Shown here: positions 17,924 through 26,907 of the stretch, piece by piece
Layout: every line of letters begins with the position of its first letter
Numbering within the stretch: the first letter of the stretch is position 1
Assembly: GCA_016873845.1 (NCBI GenBank)
Contig: VGVX01000009.1
Span: forward strand, 1-54,113
Origin: Ignavibacteria bacterium
GTDB lineage: Bacteria; Bacteroidota; Ignavibacteria; Ch128b
DNA: 54,113 nt
Reading direction: 5' to 3'
Translations under genes and position numbers: made by a program
The notes under the pieces: model-generated
Database searches by the model: none
What the model was told of the DNA's origin: nothing
The model's input: only the letters and a program-made list of their open reading frames with translations

Positions 17924-18722
17924 TCTAGCAAAAATTAATATTGGACTGAATATAATCTCAAAACGAAGTGATGGGTATCATAACCTTGAAACGATTTTCT
18001 ACCCCATAAATCTTTTTGATGATCTTGAATTCATTGAGAGTGACAAATTCTCAATTGATTGTACCGATCCAAGCATCCCAACTGACAGTTCAAATTTAAT
18101 TTGGAAAGCTAAAGATCTTATTCAAGAAAAAAGTTCGGAAGAAATAAATGTAAGAGTTAAACTACTGAAACGGATTCCATCATTTGCCGGATTAGGCGGC
18201 GGAAGCTCAAACGCTGCAATTACTTTGAAAGCGCTAAAACAAATTTACAACATTGATTTGACTAAGGATGAATTGCAGTCAATCGCGGTTAGAATTGGTG
18301 CAGATGTCCCCTTCTTTCTCGAAAACAAGCCTTGTTTTGCTCAAGGCAGAGGAGAAATATTGTTACCCCTAAATGATTTTCAAGTTGATGGAAAAATCGT
18401 TGTAGTGTTTCCAAAAGTTAATGTCTCTACTGCTTGGGCATATAGTGAAATTACTCCTAAGCATCCATATTTTAGCATAGCATCAATAAAAACTTTTTCG
18501 GATTTCTTGGAGAACACAAATAAGATAGAAAACGATTTTGAACATCCTGTATTCTTTAAATATCCAGAAATTGGCGAAATCAAAAACTACCTAATAAAAA
18601 TGGGTTCAATATATTCATCACTCACTGGCAGCGGTTCTGCAGTTTATGGGATATTCCCTTTCGATGTGGAATTAACGCAAATCAAATCTTACTTATCAAA
18701 TTATGAGGTTTTCGAATGTTAA
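17910..18722 (+). CDS. ispE: 4-diphosphocytidyl-2-C-methyl-D-erythritol kinase
   Basis: 270 residues from ATG at 17910 ('MKFISLAKINIGLNI'); TTG and ATG codons at 17895 and 17898 are possible but add non-conserved residues. It is a GHMP kinase, and the ATP-binding 'PSFAGLGGGSSNAAITLKAL' is intact, as are 'GADVPFFL' and the C-terminal 'SSLTGSGSAVYGIF'. It phosphorylates CDP-methylerythritol with ATP in the non-mevalonate isoprenoid pathway. It overlaps the methyltransferase gene by 14 nt and the next gene by 7 nt, so translation is coupled. Confidence 0.95.
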   Translation: MKFISLAKINIGLNIISKRSDGYHNLETIFYPINLFDDLEFIESDKFSIDCTDPSIPTDSSNLIWKAKDLIQEKSSEEINVRVKLLKRIPSFAGLGGGSSNAAITLKALKQIYNIDLTKDELQSIAVRIGADVPFFLENKPCFAQGRGEILLPLNDFQVDGKIVVVFPKVNVSTAWAYSEITPKHPYFSIASIKTFSDFLENTNKIENDFEHPVFFKYPEIGEIKNYLIKMGSIYSSLTGSGSAVYGIFPFDVELTQIKSYLSNYEVFEC

Positions 18723-19324
18723 AAAATATTTTTCTTCTTTTTGCTCTAATCTTTATAGCTTTCTTTAATTCATGCAGTCATTTCAAGCTTCTTAGTTGGG
18801 ATGAATTAAATATCATTCCCAGGTCAGCTTGGAATGCAAGTGAACCTCATGAGTATAAATCCCACATGATTAATCGAATTACAATCCACCATGAAGGTAC
18901 ATTCTTTCATCAAGACAGTTCTGCATTGCGTCATGTGAAAAATGTTCAAACCTGGGGAATGGGACCAGACAGAAATTGGATCGATGTTCCTTACCATTAT
19001 TTGATCGACGGAAAAGGAAATATCATAGAAGGAAGAAATCCATTAACTGTCGGTGAAACAAATACCTCATACGATCCTACTGGACATGTTTTAATTTCGG
19101 TAATTGGACAGTATCATAAAAGGCAAATTCTTAGAGAGGAACAGTTGAATTCAATTGTTCAGCTTGCAGCTAATTTATGTTTGAAGTATAACCTGTCGCC
19201 GGATTCAATTAAGGGTCATAGAGATTTCTGTAAACCTGGTGAAACAAGCTGCCCGGGCGATGATATTTATCAATACATTGATGATGGAACGATTAGAAAC
19301 CGCGTGAAAAAATTAGTTAAATAA
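18716..19324 (+). CDS. N-acetylmuramoyl-L-alanine amidase (Amidase_2/PGRP fold), lipoprotein
   Basis: 202 residues. The start is a lipoprotein signal, with the lipobox-like 'FFNSC' at residues 16-20 and acylation expected at Cys20. The amidase domain covers the rest. Zinc ligands are visible: the first His in 'ITIHHEGTFF', the second in 'KGHRDFCKPG' and the Cys in 'ETSCPGDDI'. It would cleave the bond between N-acetylmuramic acid and L-alanine in peptidoglycan, anchored to a membrane and facing the periplasm. It is the last gene of the rightward run with ispE, and overlaps it by 7 nt. The convergent S66 gene ends 22 nt away. No clear terminator hairpin is seen between them. Confidence 0.9.
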   Translation: MLKNIFLLFALIFIAFFNSCSHFKLLSWDELNIIPRSAWNASEPHEYKSHMINRITIHHEGTFFHQDSSALRHVKNVQTWGMGPDRNWIDVPYHYLIDGKGNIIEGRNPLTVGETNTSYDPTGHVLISVIGQYHKRQILREEQLNSIVQLAANLCLKYNLSPDSIKGHRDFCKPGETSCPGDDIYQYIDDGTIRNRVKKLVK

Positions 19325-19345: not shown

Positions 19346-20287
19346 TTATCTCACGCATCCTTCTAAAATCTCAAACTCTCCTTTTGTTGCATTGATGCGC
19401 GCTCTTACTCCTAGGGGGATTGTATTTTTCGATTTGACATGTCCATAAATCACATTGTAAATAATCGGTTTCTTCACCGACGAAAAATATTCGTATACAA
19501 CGTCATTAATCGACAAAGATTTTTTTGATGGGTCTGTTTCTTCGCAATCGGTGAAATTGCACAATATCATTCCGGACATTTTGTCAAATATCTTTGCTAG
19601 CTTCATTTGGCTAAAGTATCTATCTACCCTGTAAGGTTTTTCATCAACATCTTCCAGAAAAAGAATTGATTTATCAAACTTAGGTAAATATGGCGTGCCC
19701 AATAGACTCCCAATTAAAGAAAGATTGCCACCAATCAATCTTCCATTGGCAATTCCTTTTGTAAGAGTCGAAATTTTTTCTTCATTCGGATTTTTTACTT
19801 TACCGATTTTTTTGTTAGAGGTAACCATTCTCCAAAAGTTATCTTCAGTAAAAGGATCTATCTCATTAGCAAAATCGACAGCAGCCATTGGTCCCGAAAA
19901 AGTTATTAGCCCAGTTTTTACATAAATCGCCAGCTGCAGAGCTGTAATGTCACTGTATCCGACAAATATCTTAGGATTCCGTCTAATTAAATTAAAATTT
20001 ATTTTATCAAGCAGGCGAATTGTACCATATCCACCGCGAATTGAAATTATCGCCTTTACATTTTTATCACTGAACATATCATGAATATCTGATAATCTTT
20101 CTTCGTCCAGACCGCCAAGATATCCATATTGCTTACCGACATTTTTCCCGAGCTTCACCCTATAGCCGAGCCCTTCTAAATATTTTATTGAATCTTGAAT
20201 TTTTGTGAGAAGGTCGGGAGTGGAAGCAGGGGTTATTAGTCCAATTACTTCGCCTTTATTCAGTTTTGCTGGTTTGATCGCTTGCAT
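19346..20287 (-). CDS. S66-family peptidase (LD-carboxypeptidase / MccF-like)
   Basis: 313 residues from ATG at 20287, chosen because GGAGAG (20292-20297) lies 4 nt before it; a TTG at 20299 would overlap that site. The start 'PAKLNKGEVIGLITPASTP' is typical. The triad of the family can be placed: Ser in 'FVGYSDITALQLA', Glu in 'LFLEDVDEKPYR' and His in 'VIYGHVKSKNTIPLG'. S66 enzymes remove D-Ala from murein tetrapeptides (LdcA) or open acyl-sulfamoyl-peptide antibiotics (MccF). It follows the outer-membrane protein gene by only 25 nt on the same strand. It is thus probably the last gene of the PqqD/ATP-grasp operon. Confidence 0.9.
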   Translation of the reverse strand: MQAIKPAKLNKGEVIGLITPASTPDLLTKIQDSIKYLEGLGYRVKLGKNVGKQYGYLGGLDEERLSDIHDMFSDKNVKAIISIRGGYGTIRLLDKINFNLIRRNPKIFVGYSDITALQLAIYVKTGLITFSGPMAAVDFANEIDPFTEDNFWRMVTSNKKIGKVKNPNEEKISTLTKGIANGRLIGGNLSLIGSLLGTPYLPKFDKSILFLEDVDEKPYRVDRYFSQMKLAKIFDKMSGMILCNFTDCEETDPSKKSLSINDVVYEYFSSVKKPIIYNVIYGHVKSKNTIPLGVRARINATKGEFEILEGCVR

Positions 20288-20291
20288 AAAT

Positions 20292-20297
20292 CTCTCC
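20292..20297 (-). promoter_or_regulatory. Strong Shine-Dalgarno site (GGAGAG) of the S66 gene
   Basis: GGAGAG with 4 nt to the ATG at 20287. It fixes the start of the S66 gene and gives it independent ribosome loading although the gap to the gene before is only 25 nt. Confidence 0.65.
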
Positions 20298-20312
20298 AAA
20301 TATTTTTAGATT

Positions 20313-21128
20313 TTATAAATCTATATTTAATTTTAATCCCCCAATTAGATAATCAATCTTGTATGATTCGAACTGAGTGTGTTGAAATGCACTTACAATA
20401 GTCAATTTTGAAAATAAATTATACTCCAACTGAATTCCGACTAAAATTTTTTGAGTATAAATTTGATTAAATAAAATTAATAAATCGGGATCCACAAATA
20501 GAGTTCTCTTCCCATACATTAAATTACTTTTGATCAACAAATCAGAAGAGGGCTGATAATTAAACTTTGCTGCAACTGAAAATAAAGATCGATTATCATT
20601 TGAAAAAGATGCTGTGGTTCTTAATCCCATAAAAATTTTATAATGCGGAATAAATTCAAATCGAAGATTTGCTTGATGCGAATTTACATTCGGCTGCCCC
20701 TGTTGTGTGAAATATGTGTAACCAATTCCATAGTAGTAAGGATAATCTCCTTTTACAATATCAAGATTCACTGCGGATGAGTTATCCGTGTAACTGTAAT
20801 TTGTTACACCCTCGGTGTAGTCACCATTTATTTTAAAATAATTTAACTTCAGATAATAACTCGATATGTTATACACAATTCCAGCGATTATATTTTTTTG
20901 GTGATACTTCCAATCTTTGCTGGTGATGTTCAAGTTATCACATGCTAATATTATATGATCGATATTATTCCACGTTCCGCTGACATAACTAGCAAATGAA
21001 TTAGAATGATCCTCGTTCGTATAATTGCCCCTTGTATAATAAACAGATGGTTTAAGAGTAAATGTTGATTGTGCGAAAACTTCTACAATGAGAATAATAA
21101 ATAGAAACAGAAATATTTTAATCGACAA
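20313..21128 (-). CDS. Outer-membrane beta-barrel-like exported protein
   Basis: 271 residues. 'MSIKIFLFLFIILIVEVFAQ' is a signal peptide with cleavage after the Ala-Gln region. The rest alternates polar and aromatic residues in about 9-12-residue strands ('NIIAGIVYNISSYYLKLNYF', 'YYYGIGYTYFTQQGQ') and ends 'YLIGGLKLNIDL', with a terminal hydrophobic residue as in barrel proteins. The general look is like YaiO-type barrels that follow TPR proteins, but I cannot assign a family. It overlaps the TPR gene by 11 nt and is followed by the S66 gene. It may form the outer-membrane part of the operon's export or uptake route. Confidence 0.7.
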   Translation of the reverse strand: MSIKIFLFLFIILIVEVFAQSTFTLKPSVYYTRGNYTNEDHSNSFASYVSGTWNNIDHIILACDNLNITSKDWKYHQKNIIAGIVYNISSYYLKLNYFKINGDYTEGVTNYSYTDNSSAVNLDIVKGDYPYYYGIGYTYFTQQGQPNVNSHQANLRFEFIPHYKIFMGLRTTASFSNDNRSLFSVAAKFNYQPSSDLLIKSNLMYGKRTLFVDPDLLILFNQIYTQKILVGIQLEYNLFSKLTIVSAFQHTQFESYKIDYLIGGLKLNIDL

Positions 21129-21762
21129 GCTTTAATCCTTCTGTTGCCGATTCATCGTTTTTACTAACCATCAAAACATATATGAATTTTTCTCTTGCTT
21201 CAGCTTTTCGATTTAAATAAAATAAATTCCAACCGTAGGAAAGATTCGCTTCATAATCACTTGGGAACAATCGATTCACTTTTGATAAATACTGATCTGC
21301 ATTTTTGTATTCTTTTCTATTCATCATTATCTGCCCGAGGCGCAGGTTTGCGGTATAATTGTTTGGATCATGAGCAAGAATCTTTTCATAACTTTTGGCT
21401 ACGTCATTCCATTTTTCTTTTGCAGCAAGGGGCAATACAAGACCGAGATATGCTTCAACCGATTGGTGATTCCTTAATTCAACAGCTTTGGAGTAAAATT
21501 TGATTGACTCGTCATACTTTTTGGTAATGTAATATAAGTAACCCAATCTCAGATTCACCAGGTAATCATTTGAATGATTCAAATAAATGTTATTCAGTTC
21601 TTTGATTGCTTCGGTATAATTTCCTCTTTCAGCTTGAGTAATTGAATTATTAAAAGCATTGATCCGACTGTCTAACTCGCCGGAATATACCGCCGAAGCA
21701 ACTGCAATCACTGAAACCAAAATTGCCAGAATACCAACTAGATAAATTTTTTTCTTTTTCAT
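21118..21762 (-). CDS. TPR-repeat protein with N-terminal membrane anchor
   Basis: 214 residues from ATG at 21762, one base after the stop of the transporter-peptidase gene; an in-frame start at 21807 would lie inside that gene. A hydrophobic anchor ('KKKKIYLVGILAILVSVIAV', about residues 2-21) is followed by about five tetratricopeptide repeats, such as 'YLVNLRLGYLYYITKKYDES', 'AYLGLVLPLAAKEKWNDVAK' and 'NYTANLRLGQIMMNRKEYK'. TPR repeats make protein-protein contacts. The protein should face the periplasm and could link the inner-membrane transporter fusion to the outer-membrane protein encoded next (11-nt overlap). Confidence 0.85.
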   Translation of the reverse strand: MKKKKIYLVGILAILVSVIAVASAVYSGELDSRINAFNNSITQAERGNYTEAIKELNNIYLNHSNDYLVNLRLGYLYYITKKYDESIKFYSKAVELRNHQSVEAYLGLVLPLAAKEKWNDVAKSYEKILAHDPNNYTANLRLGQIMMNRKEYKNADQYLSKVNRLFPSDYEANLSYGWNLFYLNRKAEAREKFIYVLMVSKNDESATEGLKLVD

Positions 21763-21763
21763 G

Positions 21764-23908
21764 TTATTTTCCGTCCAAAAGTTCTGCATAAAATTGTTCA
21801 TGATCATTTTCTGTTAACAAGACGCTGTGAAGTCTACCGCTTCTCGCAACATTAAGTTCATAAAATTTTGTTGAAGTTAAAAAATTAAAAATTCCCTTTC
21901 CATAAAGAGAGATTTTATTCGATATTTTGTGTGAGATTTCCTCATTATCAGATGTCTCGACCATGCTAAATTCGCCTTTTGCCCTGAAAGGATTAAATAA
22001 TAAAATGAGAAAGTCACTTAAAATCCTTAGCGGATAGCTGGCTGTTAAAAATAATGGGAATGAGTCTTCCCAGCGTAAATTTTCCTGCGAAGAAAAGGGA
22101 ACTTGCGTCGAAGCAAGATAAAAATGATACAGCACAGTATTTTTCTTGCCCACATAGCTTGTGAAATAAAACACTTCTCCGTCATTGTAAAATGTCGCAG
22201 TGGCAGTTCCTGAAGTTTCTATATACAGAGTATTGGTAAAATCGAGTTTAACTTCCCACTCCTCGTAATGTTCTTTACCGGCTTTATTGAACTTGAATTT
22301 TAGTTTATCACCGAGCTTCAGATTGAATGCATCTTTCAAAGTTTTGTTTATGTCAAGATTCTGAATTAAATCACCTTGATTTGGAAATTCAGCACTCTTC
22401 AATATGAATCCATTTTCTTTGCGAAGCAGATAATGACCAAAAGGAAATTTAAATGTGTTCGCTCCAATTTTTTCACTCATTTGAAATTGGAAATGAATGT
22501 GCGGCTCAGGAGAACGCCCACTATTCCCGCACGCACCAATTACATCCCCACTTTCTATTTCATCTCCCACATTGACTTTGATTGACTTTCTCTTCAAGTG
22601 AGATATCGCACTAAATAAATTCATGCCATGATCAAGAACAACTGTATTTCCCCAATTCTTTTCTAAATTGAACTCACCTATATCATTGTCATCAATATCT
22701 TCAATTGTTTTAACAACTTTTCCCTTGAGCGGAGCTAAAACCGGTGAGCCATAACTGAAGTACTGCTTAAGTGAACGCCCATCTCCCCGAAACATTTTCA
22801 TTTTTTCATCAACAACAACGAAATCAAATGCATATCTCCAATTTTCTTTATGTGTATGCTCTCCATCTATTGCTTGTGTCACCATCCATTCACCATGAAA
22901 TGGAAGATCGACATTCACAAACTTGTATCTCTCGAATCTTGAGGCACGATTCTGATGATAATAATAATTTTCCTCCGGCGAGCCGGGCTTAAAATAAAGT
23001 AAAATTAAATCACCAAACTTTTCGCGGAATTTTAAACCATATACTAAAAGCAAAACAACCAAGTTAAAAGGAAGAACCAGAATCGGAACTTGAAGCGATG
23101 AAAATAAATTCGAAACGATCACTGTAAAAATAATTATGAATATTGTTCCGACTAACACACTTAATATTGATTTATTCGATGGGATAATTAAAGACCCACC
23201 GAGTGCAATCGCGGTGATAATTGAATTAAATAATATTGGACTAGTTAAATCATACACAAAATGCTGCGGCAGCATAGAGATGAAGAATAATCCAATAGAA
23301 AAACCGAGAATCGCGAGTGCTGCCATAATCCTTGAAAAGACCAACATTGCCACAAATATTATTATTCCAGAAAGTAAATCTGTTTGAAGCAGCAGCAATC
23401 CCAACGATTTAAAAAATAATTGAAAACTATCAGGTAAAAATGAGTAAAGTTCGGAATTGAAAGAGAAATCTATTCTTCCATTCAGCATTCCTAAATTTTG
23501 ATTAAAAATGAGGAAAAGAATAATTGAAAGAACAAATGGCAAGCTAAGTCCAGGCAAATTGAATCCGACGGCAAAATAATTTTCAATAGCTGTTGTCACA
23601 AAGAAAGTCACAACTAAAAAAATTACGAGCAGGATAAAGAAAGTGATCCCTATCTCATAAAAAAAAGTTAAAGCCGCACTAAAGAGTAGACCGTTAAAGC
23701 CAAAAAATCCGAGATTAATTTTCGATTTATCATATTGGAGTATGTAAGCGAATAAATTTGTGAATAGAACCGAGGCAACTATGATTAATCCGCTGATTGG
23801 CTTTACAAAAGTTGCCAATAAGATTAGAATCCCGAACCACTTTCTATTCGAAAAGAAAATTTGAGCATAACTATACAATGTTGAATCGATTACGAATTTT
23901 AAATTCAT
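21764..23908 (-). CDS. Urea transporter fused to an M23 (LytM) metallopeptidase
   Basis: 714 residues. Residues 1-300 form a urea-transporter (UT) channel with the internal duplication visible: 'GFFGFNGLLFSAAL' with 'LPGLSLPF' (118-125) in half one, 'LFNSIITAIALGG' with 'VPILVLPF' (274-281) in half two. These match the UT signature LPxxTxPF. Residues about 335-480 are an M23 peptidase: H353 and D362 in 'THKENWRYAFDF', 'NWGNTVVLDHG' and 'PHIHFQFQ' with H472, the zinc ligands of the SH(x8)D subgroup. About 230 further residues of unclear fold follow. It would let urea or a similar amide cross the inner membrane and cut peptidoglycan peptides outside. Its ATG overlaps the decarboxylase stop (ATGA). 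UT-M23 fusions are known in other Bacteroidota genomes as annotations; function untested as far as I know. Confidence 0.88.
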   Translation of the reverse strand: MNLKFVIDSTLYSYAQIFFSNRKWFGILILLATFVKPISGLIIVASVLFTNLFAYILQYDKSKINLGFFGFNGLLFSAALTFFYEIGITFFILLVIFLVVTFFVTTAIENYFAVGFNLPGLSLPFVLSIILFLIFNQNLGMLNGRIDFSFNSELYSFLPDSFQLFFKSLGLLLLQTDLLSGIIIFVAMLVFSRIMAALAILGFSIGLFFISMLPQHFVYDLTSPILFNSIITAIALGGSLIIPSNKSILSVLVGTIFIIIFTVIVSNLFSSLQVPILVLPFNLVVLLLVYGLKFREKFGDLILLYFKPGSPEENYYYHQNRASRFERYKFVNVDLPFHGEWMVTQAIDGEHTHKENWRYAFDFVVVDEKMKMFRGDGRSLKQYFSYGSPVLAPLKGKVVKTIEDIDDNDIGEFNLEKNWGNTVVLDHGMNLFSAISHLKRKSIKVNVGDEIESGDVIGACGNSGRSPEPHIHFQFQMSEKIGANTFKFPFGHYLLRKENGFILKSAEFPNQGDLIQNLDINKTLKDAFNLKLGDKLKFKFNKAGKEHYEEWEVKLDFTNTLYIETSGTATATFYNDGEVFYFTSYVGKKNTVLYHFYLASTQVPFSSQENLRWEDSFPLFLTASYPLRILSDFLILLFNPFRAKGEFSMVETSDNEEISHKISNKISLYGKGIFNFLTSTKFYELNVARSGRLHSVLLTENDHEQFYAELLDGK

Positions 23909-25263
23909 TTAATCTTCAAACTTTCAGGAACTCTTTCTAATTGAGTAATGTATTCAAGAGACTCGCCCTCTCGAATAATTTCAACATTTCCGGATTCCAT
24001 TATCATAACTACTTTTGGTCTTAGACTAATGAATTGCATCCATTGAGTCATATTGTAAGCACCAACATTCTGAATAACCAAAGCATCACCAACAGGAATT
24101 GGCGGCAGTTGAATACCATCACGTATCACATCGATATTCATACAAAGATTTCCGAAAACCACGGAATCTTCAGTATGCTCGCCATAAAACTTAGTCGGTA
24201 AAATGCGATGCTTGTACCAAAAACTTGTAAATAAAATATTAACACCTGCATCGAGAATAACTGCACGTCTTCCATTACTTAATCTTTTGTGAGCGATCAC
24301 TTTTGTAATTAAATAGCCAGATTCATCAACTAACGCTCTCCCGGTTTCCAAAATTAACATTGGAAGTTCAGAAGGTTTGAGATTGTGTTCAAAGATTCCG
24401 CTTGTGATAGCATCGGCATAATCTTCAAAGTTTGGTACAATCCCAGAAGCATCTAAATACTGTGCATGCAGTGTGTTCTTGGATGCAAATCCTCCCCCTA
24501 AATCGATGTATTCCAATGAATGATTAAGCTCATTTAGAATTTTCTTGTAAAGGAGAGTCATTTTTGAGGCAGCTATTCGATAAGCAGAAGTCGATAACAT
24601 ATATGTTCCGATGTGACAATGCAGTCCCACCAAATTTAAGTTTTTAGCGAGCATAATTCTTTTTATTGCATCTAGCGCTTCCCCGTTTTCATAACTGAAA
24701 CCAAATCTATCCCACTTTGGATAGATTCCGACATCCATATTTACTCGGATTGCGACTCTCGCAATTTTAGAGATTTTTTCAGAAACCTCAATAAGTGTGT
24801 AAAGTTCATCAAAATGATCAATATGGATGCTCGCACCATCTTGAATAGCTTTATTCAGTGCTTCTTTTGACTTATCAGGTCCATTGAAAATTATTTTATT
24901 ACCTGGTATACCGAGACGTTTTGCTTTATCATACTCAAATTCAGAAACAACTTCTGCCCAGGAACCCTCTTGATGAAAAATTGAGCAAACCGCATCTAAA
25001 TAATTTGTCTTATAAGACCAAGCGAATTGCACTTTTGGATATCTTGTTTTAAAAATTCTCAATGCATCTTTTTGTTGTTCTCTTAATTTTTTTTCTGAGA
25101 TAACAAATACCGGCGATCCAAACCTCGCAACAAATTCTTCAACAGCAATATCATCTATTTTTTCTATAAGAATTGCAATCGGTGCTTTACCGAATTTATT
25201 CATCATCCCAAGCTGCTGCCTGGTAATAATCGGGCGAACATATTTTTTCTTTTTAATTTCCAT
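23905..25263 (-). CDS. PLP-dependent decarboxylase, fold type III (DAP/ornithine decarboxylase-like)
   Basis: 452 residues. The alanine-racemase-like barrel holds the PLP Lys85 in 'FAWSYKTNYLD', H217 in 'GLHCHIGTYML', the phosphate loop 'YIDLGGGFAS' (D254) and E306 in 'ILETGRALVDESG'. The C-terminal barrel has the reactive Cys374 in 'FGNLCMNIDVIRDG' and Tyr403 in 'VGAYNMTQW'. Diaminopimelate and ornithine decarboxylases have C(E/D)S(G/A)D where this has CMNID, so the substrate is probably different. It decarboxylates an amino acid or a carboxy-terminal amino acid residue. It starts on the ATP-grasp stop (TAATG) and overlaps the transporter gene (ATGA). A simple lysine pathway role is unlikely from context. 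Confidence 0.88.
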   Translation of the reverse strand: MEIKKKKYVRPIITRQQLGMMNKFGKAPIAILIEKIDDIAVEEFVARFGSPVFVISEKKLREQQKDALRIFKTRYPKVQFAWSYKTNYLDAVCSIFHQEGSWAEVVSEFEYDKAKRLGIPGNKIIFNGPDKSKEALNKAIQDGASIHIDHFDELYTLIEVSEKISKIARVAIRVNMDVGIYPKWDRFGFSYENGEALDAIKRIMLAKNLNLVGLHCHIGTYMLSTSAYRIAASKMTLLYKKILNELNHSLEYIDLGGGFASKNTLHAQYLDASGIVPNFEDYADAITSGIFEHNLKPSELPMLILETGRALVDESGYLITKVIAHKRLSNGRRAVILDAGVNILFTSFWYKHRILPTKFYGEHTEDSVVFGNLCMNIDVIRDGIQLPPIPVGDALVIQNVGAYNMTQWMQFISLRPKVVMIMESGNVEIIREGESLEYITQLERVPESLKIK

Positions 25264-26297
25264 TATAATTCTCCAAATACAGAAATTTTTTCAAATGTCT
25301 TCATATCTGAAATTAGATCGTATGAGCACCGAATGAACATCTTGCCAATTTCATAATTAACGAATGGTTCGACATTTTTTCCAAGTGCAAGTTGAACAAG
25401 TGCATATGGTAAATTTTGTCCTGACTGTTCAGTTAGATAAACCCAAGCTGGCAACCGAGAATTGATTTCCAGTAAATAGTACTGATTATCTTCTGTACGT
25501 TTGAGTATCTCAATCTCTAATCCACTCCGCCAATTGATTTTTTGAATAATATCATGAGCCATTCTGATTAATTTATCGTCACCAATTGTAACTCCAGCCC
25601 ACCCTTTACCTTTGTCCGTAATATATAATTTTCTCATTGCGACTGCACCTACTGTATTACCATTTCCATCACCAACTGCGGCAACATTGTACTCATCTCC
25701 AGTCAAATACTCTTGAAGAATGATCGGTAGTCCCCACTTATTTAACAATCGATAATAACTCGATTCAACCTGCTCAAACGAATGACAGATGAAAGCTTCA
25801 TAAAAAACTCCTTTTACAACAACAGGATACTTTAATTCTTCTGCTGCTTTCTTCAATTCGACTAACGAAGTGACTAATTCTTGCTTTGGTACATTTAACC
25901 CATAAGACTTTCCGAATTCATACAGCCTTTCTTTTGAACGAACTTCTAAATTATCTAACGTGGGAAGAAATGTTTTTATGCCTAATGATTTTAATTTGTC
26001 GCTGATTCGAATAAAACCATAGAGTTCTGAATCGAGTGTCGGGATAATCACATCGATTTTTTCTTTTTCGTGTATATAAATAAGTCGATCCCGAAGACTG
26101 TCAGTTCCTGTTGAGGGATATGGGATCAGGTAAGATTTTAGCTTTATTCCCTCCATATATATCCCAGGTTCGAGATTATCGTAGTGTAATCCTATTATTT
26201 CACCCTCAAAATCCGGATGATTTTTTATAGATCGGATTACCGGTACACCAGGACCAGGATTATCAGTATTGTTCAAACCTGTTACAGCAATTTTCAT
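25263..26297 (-). CDS. ATP-grasp ligase (CarB/PylC-like fold)
   Basis: 344 residues. The N-terminal Rossmann part ('MKIAVTGLNNTDNPGPGVPV') resembles the pre-ATP-grasp domain of carbamoyl-phosphate-synthase-like ligases. The ATP-grasp domain has 'YPVVVKG' (K162), 'ILQEYLTGDEYN' (E196) and the metal-binding 'YLLEINSRLPAW' (E278, N280 nearby) followed by 'SGQNLPYALVQLALG'. These enzymes join a carboxylate to an amine or thiol through an acyl-phosphate with ATP. PylC, D-Asp ligases and peptide-tailoring ligases share the fold; the substrate here is unknown. It overlaps the PqqD-like gene by 4 nt and the decarboxylase by 1 nt, so the three are made together. Confidence 0.88.
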   Translation of the reverse strand: MKIAVTGLNNTDNPGPGVPVIRSIKNHPDFEGEIIGLHYDNLEPGIYMEGIKLKSYLIPYPSTGTDSLRDRLIYIHEKEKIDVIIPTLDSELYGFIRISDKLKSLGIKTFLPTLDNLEVRSKERLYEFGKSYGLNVPKQELVTSLVELKKAAEELKYPVVVKGVFYEAFICHSFEQVESSYYRLLNKWGLPIILQEYLTGDEYNVAAVGDGNGNTVGAVAMRKLYITDKGKGWAGVTIGDDKLIRMAHDIIQKINWRSGLEIEILKRTEDNQYYLLEINSRLPAWVYLTEQSGQNLPYALVQLALGKNVEPFVNYEIGKMFIRCSYDLISDMKTFEKISVFGEL

Positions 26298-26539
26298 TCT
26301 GCTTCGATCAGATTAAAGTTTTTTATCCGAGAAATGAAATCTATTAGATCTTTTTCAGCAATATTTTTTTCAACATCAAATTCTTCTATGACCGAATTCA
26401 ATATCTCAGCTTCATTATTTCCGGATTGGATCAAATGCAGGATGAAATTTCCTGTATCGTTGAGGAGGAAAGTATCACCAGTGGAAGAGTGAAATGCAAA
26501 GCCGCTTTCACTAAGTGCAAGATTTTTTTGGAGTTTCAT
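26294..26539 (-). CDS. PqqD-like protein (peptide-recognition element)
   Basis: 81 residues with the PqqD winged-helix pattern: 'SGFAFHSSTGDTFLLNDTG' (beta strands) then 'FILHLIQSGNNEAEILNSV' (helix) and a C-terminal helix ending 'IKNFNLIEAE'. In pathways for ribosomally made peptides, PqqD-like domains (RiPP recognition elements) hold the precursor peptide for modifying enzymes. I found no precursor-peptide gene in the 60 nt before it or anywhere in the operon. It is the first gene of the operon and overlaps the ATP-grasp gene by 4 nt (ATGA). It starts 61 nt after tRNA-Glu with no evident terminator. Confidence 0.85.
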   Translation of the reverse strand: MKLQKNLALSESGFAFHSSTGDTFLLNDTGNFILHLIQSGNNEAEILNSVIEEFDVEKNIAEKDLIDFISRIKNFNLIEAE

Positions 26540-26599
26540 ACTATCTCACGTTTGTATTGAAAAACACTTAAAACCCCTCAAATAAAATGCTCTCTAAAG

Positions 26600-26671
26600 T
26601 GACCCTAACGGGATTCGAACCCATATTACCGCCGTGAAAGGGCGGTGTCCTAACCATTAGACGATAGGGCC
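26600..26671 (-). tRNA. tRNA-Glu (UUC anticodon)
   Basis: Acceptor arm GGCCCTA/TAGGGTC (one G-U pair), anticodon stem CCGCC/GGCGG and loop CTTTCAC with anticodon TTC. T-arm GGGTTCGAATCCC is present. CCA is not encoded. It is the last of three tRNA genes in a row and lies 60 nt before the PqqD-like gene. Confidence 0.97.
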
Positions 26672-26686
26672 ATAATTTCAATGTTG

Positions 26687-26760
26687 GGTGAGCGATGGGA
26701 CTTGAACCCACGACCACCAGAGCCACAATCTGGCGCTCTGCCAACTGAGCTACGCTCACC
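26687..26760 (-). tRNA. tRNA-His (GUG anticodon)
   Basis: Acceptor GTGAGCG/CGCTCAC with the extra G(-1) encoded opposite C73, the mark of bacterial tRNA-His. The anticodon stem CCAGA/TCTGG holds the loop TTGTGGC with anticodon GTG. D- and T-arms are normal. Confidence 0.97.
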
Positions 26761-26834
26761 ATAAGACAAATCAAAAATCAAAAAGTAAAATGCAAATTTT
26801 TTCTTACAATAATTGATATTCGAATCATAGTTCG

Positions 26835-26907
26835 TACGCCCGATTGGACTCGAACCAATAACCCCCAGCTTAGAAGGCTGATGCTCTATCCATTGAGCTA
26901 CGGGCGC
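26835..26907 (-). tRNA. tRNA-Arg (UCU anticodon)
   Basis: Acceptor GCGCCCG/CGGGCGT (G-U at the first pair), anticodon stem TCAGC/GCTGG and loop CTTCTAA with anticodon TCT. T-arm ATTGGTTCGAGTCCAAT is present. It is the first of the tRNA trio; a clear promoter was not identified in the 90 nt upstream. Confidence 0.96.

Follow-up and report, generated by a model that had tools for sequence, protein, structure and literature searches.

A conserved six-gene cluster of Bacteroidota that may ligate and then decarboxylate an amino acid and move the product through a channel of urea-transporter fold

FigC, SbnH, AcsE, BtrK and MccE are decarboxylases whose amino acid substrates are bound to another molecule (PMC7857480). 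The rhizoferrin enzyme FslC/FigC, like SbnH and AcsE of the citrate siderophores, removes the carboxyl group from an amino acid that is attached to a larger acid; Met355 of FigC/FslC replaces the acid beside the catalytic Cys which, in ODC, ADC and DapDC, binds the substrate side-chain amine, and the specificity helix lacks the Asp/Arg found in enzymes that act on free amino acids (PMC7857480). In butirosin BtrJ-BtrI-BtrK, ATP-grasp ligation is likewise followed by decarboxylation, on a carrier, by an enzyme of alanine-racemase fold. Here we analyze a gene cluster in a 54,113-nt stretch of an Ignavibacteria bacterium (GenBank assembly GCA_016873845.1, contig VGVX01000009.1, positions 1 to 54,113), referred to throughout as the window. 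The cluster encodes a PqqD-like protein, an ATP-grasp ligase, a pyridoxal phosphate (PLP)-dependent decarboxylase, a urea-transporter (UT) channel fused to an M23 peptidase domain (UT-M23), a tetratricopeptide repeat (TPR) protein and an outer-membrane beta-barrel protein (OMP). We propose, with moderate confidence, that this cluster of Bacteroidota produces and transports a small compound of amine or amide type by a route in which an amino acid is ligated and then decarboxylated.

The argument begins with conservation. A homologue search with the UT-M23 protein in 197 genomes of the class returned full-length relatives, and the loci then inspected read PqqD, ATP-grasp, decarboxylase, UT/M23, TPR and OMP in order. 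When GTDB species genomes were scanned with an alignment of the ATP-grasp, at least 580 relatives came up; among the best-scoring 80, a sample that favors close relatives, the PqqD-ATP-grasp pair was present in 80/80 loci and the decarboxylase came next wherever the contig reached far enough. The record titles of these 80 loci name Ignavibacteria, Bacteroidales, Flavobacteriales, Chitinophaga, Balneolaceae and Chlorobiota/Chlorobi metagenome-assembled genomes. When all loci with enough room on the contig were counted, PqqD and ATP-grasp stood ahead of the decarboxylase, in this order, in 114 of 114, and UT-M23 followed the decarboxylase in 99 of 100; the TPR protein was found in 82 of 84 and a barrel gene, of the 271-aa OMP type or a 440-aa type, in 78 of 84. 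Locus L088 is without UT-M23, and the fusion is encoded elsewhere in the same genome. Median gaps in the ordered loci were −4, 12 and 11.5 nt. Median protein identity was approximately 36 to 60% over more than 100 loci with the same gene order, and shared order at such identity is, as judged from the sequences, far beyond chance.

The proteins also occur together and diverge together. Of 396 genomes drawn evenly from Bacteroidota, 34 encode the ATP-grasp, and these 34 and no others encode the full UT-M23 fusion; four more match the M23 part only. In eight loci from this draw, outside the class, PqqD, ATP-grasp and decarboxylase (the triad) together with UT/M23 were present in 8/8, and the barrel and TPR genes in 7/8. 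Pairwise distances of the five core proteins co-vary with r of 0.67 to 0.87 against a permutation maximum of 0.17, a mirror-tree comparison not corrected for shared species history. An S66 gene was found in five loci only, all of the window's own family (among L033-L066), so the conserved unit comprises six genes and not the seven of the run in the window. An earlier note on this DNA, written from the sequence, had treated the genes as one functional unit, and conserved order together with co-occurrence supports this. From the ordered loci and the 34/396 genomes, the neighborhood is clearly neither specific to one strain nor unlinked elsewhere. No description of such a cluster was found in open-access PMC full text, and within that limit the combination is, as the note had supposed, not that of a described pathway.

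The active sites of the two enzymes indicate what kind of chemistry to expect. The AlphaFold model of the ATP-grasp (predicted local distance difference test [pLDDT], 92.8) has as its closest PDB match the carbamoyl-phosphate-synthase (CPS)-like protein 2pn1 (template-modeling [TM] score, 0.77), and the nucleotide/Mg residues K162, E263, E277, N279 and R281 are invariant in 112 sequences. The best solved relative of the decarboxylase is the N-citrylornithine decarboxylase FslC/FigC (7kh2, 298 bits), and others are DapDC (228 bits), BtrK (148 to 149 bits) and SbnH (90 bits). The PLP Lys85, His217, GGG256-258, Cys374, Tyr403 and Met375 are present in 106/106 sequences, as is a GPxCM[N/Q]ID-type motif, and the specificity helix reads T-x-x-W-Y, without the Asp/Arg of ODC and DapDC. 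Since Met375, next to the catalytic Cys as in FslC/FigC, SbnH and AcsE, is found in every sequence and the pocket is of FigC type, the substrate is probably a conjugated amino acid. The protein falls below the curated cut-off for N-citrylornithine decarboxylase proper (NF041039; 246.9 bits against 500) and below that for LysA (TIGR01048; 230.6 against 297.9), its motif being CM and not CE. Lysine biosynthesis was rejected as a role, as a second, stronger Orn_Arg_deC match on contig C45 of the same genome is a separate LysA-type candidate and the pocket residues differ. The cluster also departs from both kinds of described system: the decarboxylase is paired with an ATP-grasp and a PqqD-like protein, unlike the siderophore enzymes with their nonribosomal-peptide-synthetase-independent siderophore (NIS) synthetase, and a PqqD-like protein stands in place of the acyl-carrier protein of butirosin, accompanied by membrane and envelope genes.

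With a siderophore enzyme as the nearest solved decarboxylase, the cluster might instead be a metallophore or metal-homeostasis system, like those of the citrate siderophores. An AraC-type regulator whose N-terminal, ferredoxin-like part carries a metal-binding-like NMxxxCC motif neighbors the cluster in many Bacteroidia loci (L091:9114-9704, L169:4207-4797 and some two dozen more), sometimes accompanied by a DUF2202 gene, which would fit such a role. However, the Cys residues of this part vary and Pfam HMA does not exceed its cut-off, the core contains neither an IucA/IucC-type synthetase nor a TonB receptor, and no siderophore uptake genes are present in the cluster. The citrate-contacting residue (H357 in FigC, K347 in SbnH) is Ile377 here, and citrate is therefore an unlikely conjugate partner on sequence grounds; a metallophore role appears quite improbable.

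Two independent loci mark out the core of the cluster and support the proposed pairing of ligation and decarboxylation. On a plasmid of Streptomyces zaomyceticus (NZ_CP108525.1), one gene (L177:5995-8271) with the annotation "hypothetical" codes for a protein of 758 aa that aligns with both enzymes, its first half with the ATP-grasp (tblastn, 2e-18) and its second half with the decarboxylase (5e-14). An NPxPG motif near the N terminus and a CM motif are retained. Such a fusion suggests that the two enzymes act in series. A 65.7-kb phage contig from IMG/VR (IMGVR_UViG_3300047160_011268; L159:3444-5922) carries PqqD, ATP-grasp and decarboxylase with overlaps of 4 and 1 nt, and its decarboxylase is 49% identical to that of the window over 408 aa, with a CMNID motif. 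As the phage triad stands without UT-M23, the three genes appear to form a module on their own, with UT-M23, TPR and barrel as its envelope part in Bacteroidota. The same contig encodes a DNA polymerase, a nucleoside deoxyribosyltransferase match and further replication-type genes; a use of the phage triad in nucleotide or DNA modification is possible. The INPHARED phage collection contained no ATP-grasp relative, and its decarboxylase matches were 21 to 28% identical, some of them annotated LysA. Plasmid ATP-grasp matches in Rhizobium and haloarchaea were set aside after two loci were inspected (L178 and L179), which had glycan-type or unrelated neighbors and no decarboxylase. On the Streptomyces plasmid, the fusion gene adjoins an overlapping 195-aa gene with no Pfam match and a fatty acid desaturase.

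The model of UT-M23 matched 3k3f, a UT (target-normalized TM score, 0.82), and LytM domains in the PDB, and there is no doubt about the UT fold. In UTs, two inverted halves with ten spans in all are joined by a periplasmic loop (PMC4357013). Over 92 sequences, loops assigned to the cytosol carry on average 7.2 Lys plus Arg versus 2.1 on loops assigned to the periplasm, acidic residues are distributed oppositely, and the segment directly after the last UT span carries 2.5 Lys plus Arg. Because the M23 domain follows an even number of spans and lies on the positively charged side, it is predicted to be cytosolic; the positive-inside prediction thus differs from the extracytoplasmic location expected of M23 murein endopeptidases. 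H353, D362, H437, H470 and H472 are invariant in 92/92 sequences. The domain resembles the M23/LytM peptidases DipM, ShyA and lysostaphin in fold matches and in H437, HxH470/472 and D362, but differs from them in an H-x8-D first motif, in its predicted location and in being joined to a channel. At locus L169 (7944-10198), UT and M23 appear as two open reading frames (ORFs) with a 4-nt overlap and no signal peptide; this was not used as evidence for a cytosolic M23, as the two matches share part of the query (6-329 and 313-709) and a frameshift is equally likely.

The channel shares its fold and Pfam family with dvUT (3k3f) and human UT, but its filter residues are changed, and it is fused to M23 and a further beta domain. 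With filter-residue roles taken from dvUT (PMC4357013), the T130 position is Ser in 85/92 sequences, the T294 position is Ser in 53, Val in 30 and Thr in 4, and the E187 position is Ala/Leu; the conserved urea-conduction filter (the Sm Thr pair) is therefore not kept in these sequences. The hydrophobic slot residues F27, F80 and L84 are mostly retained, and the protein scores 93.7 bits on the urea_trans_yut equivalog, under the cut-off of 274.6. Since the filter residues are substituted, urea is doubtful as the solute; a small uncharged solute is likely.

These features bear on the suggestion of the earlier note that the genes ligate, decarboxylate and transport a peptide or amino acid in connection with murein cleavage or recycling. 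Ligation, decarboxylation and transport stand as likely steps, but the link to murein does not. A murein operon would draw on the presence of M23 and S66 families in one run and on the adjacent, convergent amidase_2 gene, yet S66 is restricted to one family, M23 is predicted to be cytosolic, and the conserved unit contains no murein ligase, amino-sugar or permease gene; we therefore rejected it as the main explanation and regard it as highly improbable.

The PqqD fold serves elsewhere to dock leader peptides. The PqqD-like protein of the cluster exceeds the PF05402 cut-off but lies below every NCBIfam subfamily cut-off, and its Gly13, Gly21 and Asn27 are essentially invariant in 112 sequences. 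It is thus like PqqD and the recognition elements of ribosomally synthesized and posttranslationally modified peptides (RiPPs) in family match and size, and unlike them in that the window's cluster has neither a precursor peptide nor a radical-SAM partner. In a RiPP-type pathway, it would recognize the leader of an unlinked ribosomal precursor, the ATP-grasp would add an amino acid or make an amide, the PLP enzyme would decarboxylate, and the cytosolic M23 domain would be the leader or product peptidase. The family match, the predicted cytosolic peptidase domain in the same unit and the presence of PqqD with the triad even in phage are all in keeping with this. However, no conserved small ORF was found within 1.2 kb upstream or 0.9 kb downstream at 111 loci, where the recurrent small ORFs are antisense to or overlap coding genes, in agreement with the initial failure to find a precursor gene in the window, and a peptide would not pass a urea-sized pore. 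We consider a RiPP-type pathway unlikely.

Our preferred reading remains ligation followed by decarboxylation and release of a small product. In the cytosol, the PqqD-like protein would present an acceptor, perhaps a peptide or protein whose gene lies elsewhere in the genome, perhaps a different kind of carrier, and the ATP-grasp, spending ATP, would join an amino acid to it, presumably through an amide bond. The PLP enzyme would then act on the attached amino acid and remove its carboxyl group. The M23-like metallohydrolase, at the cytosolic mouth of the UT channel, may cut the amide and free a small uncharged product into the pore, and the periplasmic TPR protein and outer-membrane barrel would continue its path; in some lineages, a surface protein secreted by the type IX secretion system (T9SS) may take part. 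The product is probably exported rather than taken up. The sequence evidence for this reading is that the unit is conserved, that its proteins occur and diverge together, that the active sites are intact and the decarboxylase pocket carries its signature, and that a fusion and a minimal three-gene phage version exist.

Several points weigh against this reading. No carrier or precursor gene is linked to the cluster at the 111 loci, and both the M23 release step and the direction of transport are read from position alone. The positive-inside criterion is a rule and not a measurement, and the spacing of the first M23 motif is unusual, the usual form being H-x3-D. The phage case is a single contig and the fusion a single plasmid, and the phage PqqD was found by family profile and not by pairwise BLAST with that of the window. 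The bias of the 80 loci and the uncorrected co-variation given above belong here as well. More speculatively, the cluster might represent an undescribed class of envelope-spanning biosynthesis-and-release machine, in which the triad feeds a channel gated by a built-in cytosolic metallopeptidase, this gate frees the product right at the entrance to the pore for exit via TPR protein and barrel, and the triad has been separately acquired by phage and fused on an actinomycete plasmid; we offer this tentatively and think it rather less than likely.

Some partner genes recur beside the cluster. Family A9, an FG-GAP-like protein of approximately 280 aa secreted by T9SS, lies just upstream of PqqD in 22 Ignavibacteria loci. 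Of 197 class genomes, 16 encode it, and every one of these belongs to the 33 that carry the ATP-grasp and cluster (P of approximately 9e-15, if genomes were independent). Its gene mostly adjoins the cluster, but in the window's own family it is present at an unlinked site, which in the window's genome is G000:C39:21180-21740. The cluster could thus serve to modify, anchor or load the A9 protein at the cell surface. However, A9 occurs in only 16 of those 33 genomes, from only three families, and the analogous T9SS family A10, found inside some operons, was rejected as a general partner because only 2/6 A10 genomes have the cluster; no profile link between A9 and A10 was found. Because the T9SS C-terminal sorting domain has 134 matches in the window's own genome, a T9SS neighbor is by itself weak functional evidence, and we see only a slim chance that service to a surface protein is what the cluster is for. 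A role as a defense system was rejected, as no PADLOC model of a known anti-phage system matched any of five of the proteins.

In the window itself (Table 1), ORF coordinates confirmed all seven minus-strand genes of the earlier note, its overlaps and gaps matching to the base. Overlaps are 4 nt between PqqD and ATP-grasp, 1 nt between ATP-grasp and decarboxylase, 4 nt between decarboxylase and UT-M23 and 11 nt between OMP and TPR. The gap from UT-M23 to TPR is 1 nt with the TPR start at 21762, a homologue-supported Met that gives the same length of 214 aa as in locus L033, and the gap from OMP to S66 is 25 nt with the S66 start, also a homologue-supported Met, at 20287. The family assignments (PqqD, ATP-grasp, decarboxylase, UT, M23, TPR and S66) were upheld by Pfam and that of the OMP, which has no Pfam match, by its barrel-type sequence. 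No intrinsic-terminator-like site was found between the operon genes; all matches were intragenic and near the shuffled expectation. The tRNA trio upstream is kept in own-family loci L033-L036 and absent from the other loci checked, and tRNA-dependent ligation, suggested by the adjacent tRNA-Glu, was rejected for this reason.

Table 1. Features of the cluster and its surroundings in the window
Feature	Position	Strand	Remarks
PqqD-like protein, first gene of unit	26294..26539	-	81 aa; Pfam PF05402 6.6e-11
ATP-grasp ligase, CPS-like fold	25263..26297	-	344 aa; Pfam ATP-grasp
PLP decarboxylase, alanine-racemase fold, probably conjugated-amino-acid type	23905..25263	-	452 aa; Pfam Orn_Arg_deC_N 1.2e-32
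UT-M23 fusion	21764..23908	-	Pfam UT 8.6e-47 and Peptidase_M23 5.8e-16; model pLDDT 88.6
UT channel part of UT-M23	23039..23890	-	aa 7-290; ten spans; both ends predicted cytosolic; Pfam
M23-like domain of UT-M23	22409..22888	-	aa 341-500; predicted cytosolic; catalytic set intact
TPR protein, N-terminal membrane/signal segment, predicted periplasmic	21118..21762	-	214 aa; Pfam TPR
OMP	20313..21128	-	271 aa; barrel-type sequence, conserved family
S66 LD-carboxypeptidase, same run	19346..20287	-	Pfam S66 1e-39; specific to window's own family
tRNA-Glu, tRNA-His, tRNA-Arg, directly upstream of operon	26599..26907	-	Own-family context, outside conserved unit
Secreted N-acetylmuramoyl-L-alanine amidase (amidase_2)	18716-19324		Convergent with S66, 21-nt gap; outside conserved unit

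The cluster is thus a strongly conserved one of at least six genes, present in roughly 1 in 11 sampled Bacteroidota genomes, and it would be a concrete new case of an amino acid decarboxylated while held on another molecule. It also contains a channel-protease fusion whose protease is predicted to be intracellular, which would be unusual for an M23 enzyme, and the phage and Streptomyces versions offer a small, testable core of two or three genes. Finding the product would put a name to a new metabolite of Bacteroidota and show which substrate is handled by a member of the urea-transporter family that does not carry urea.

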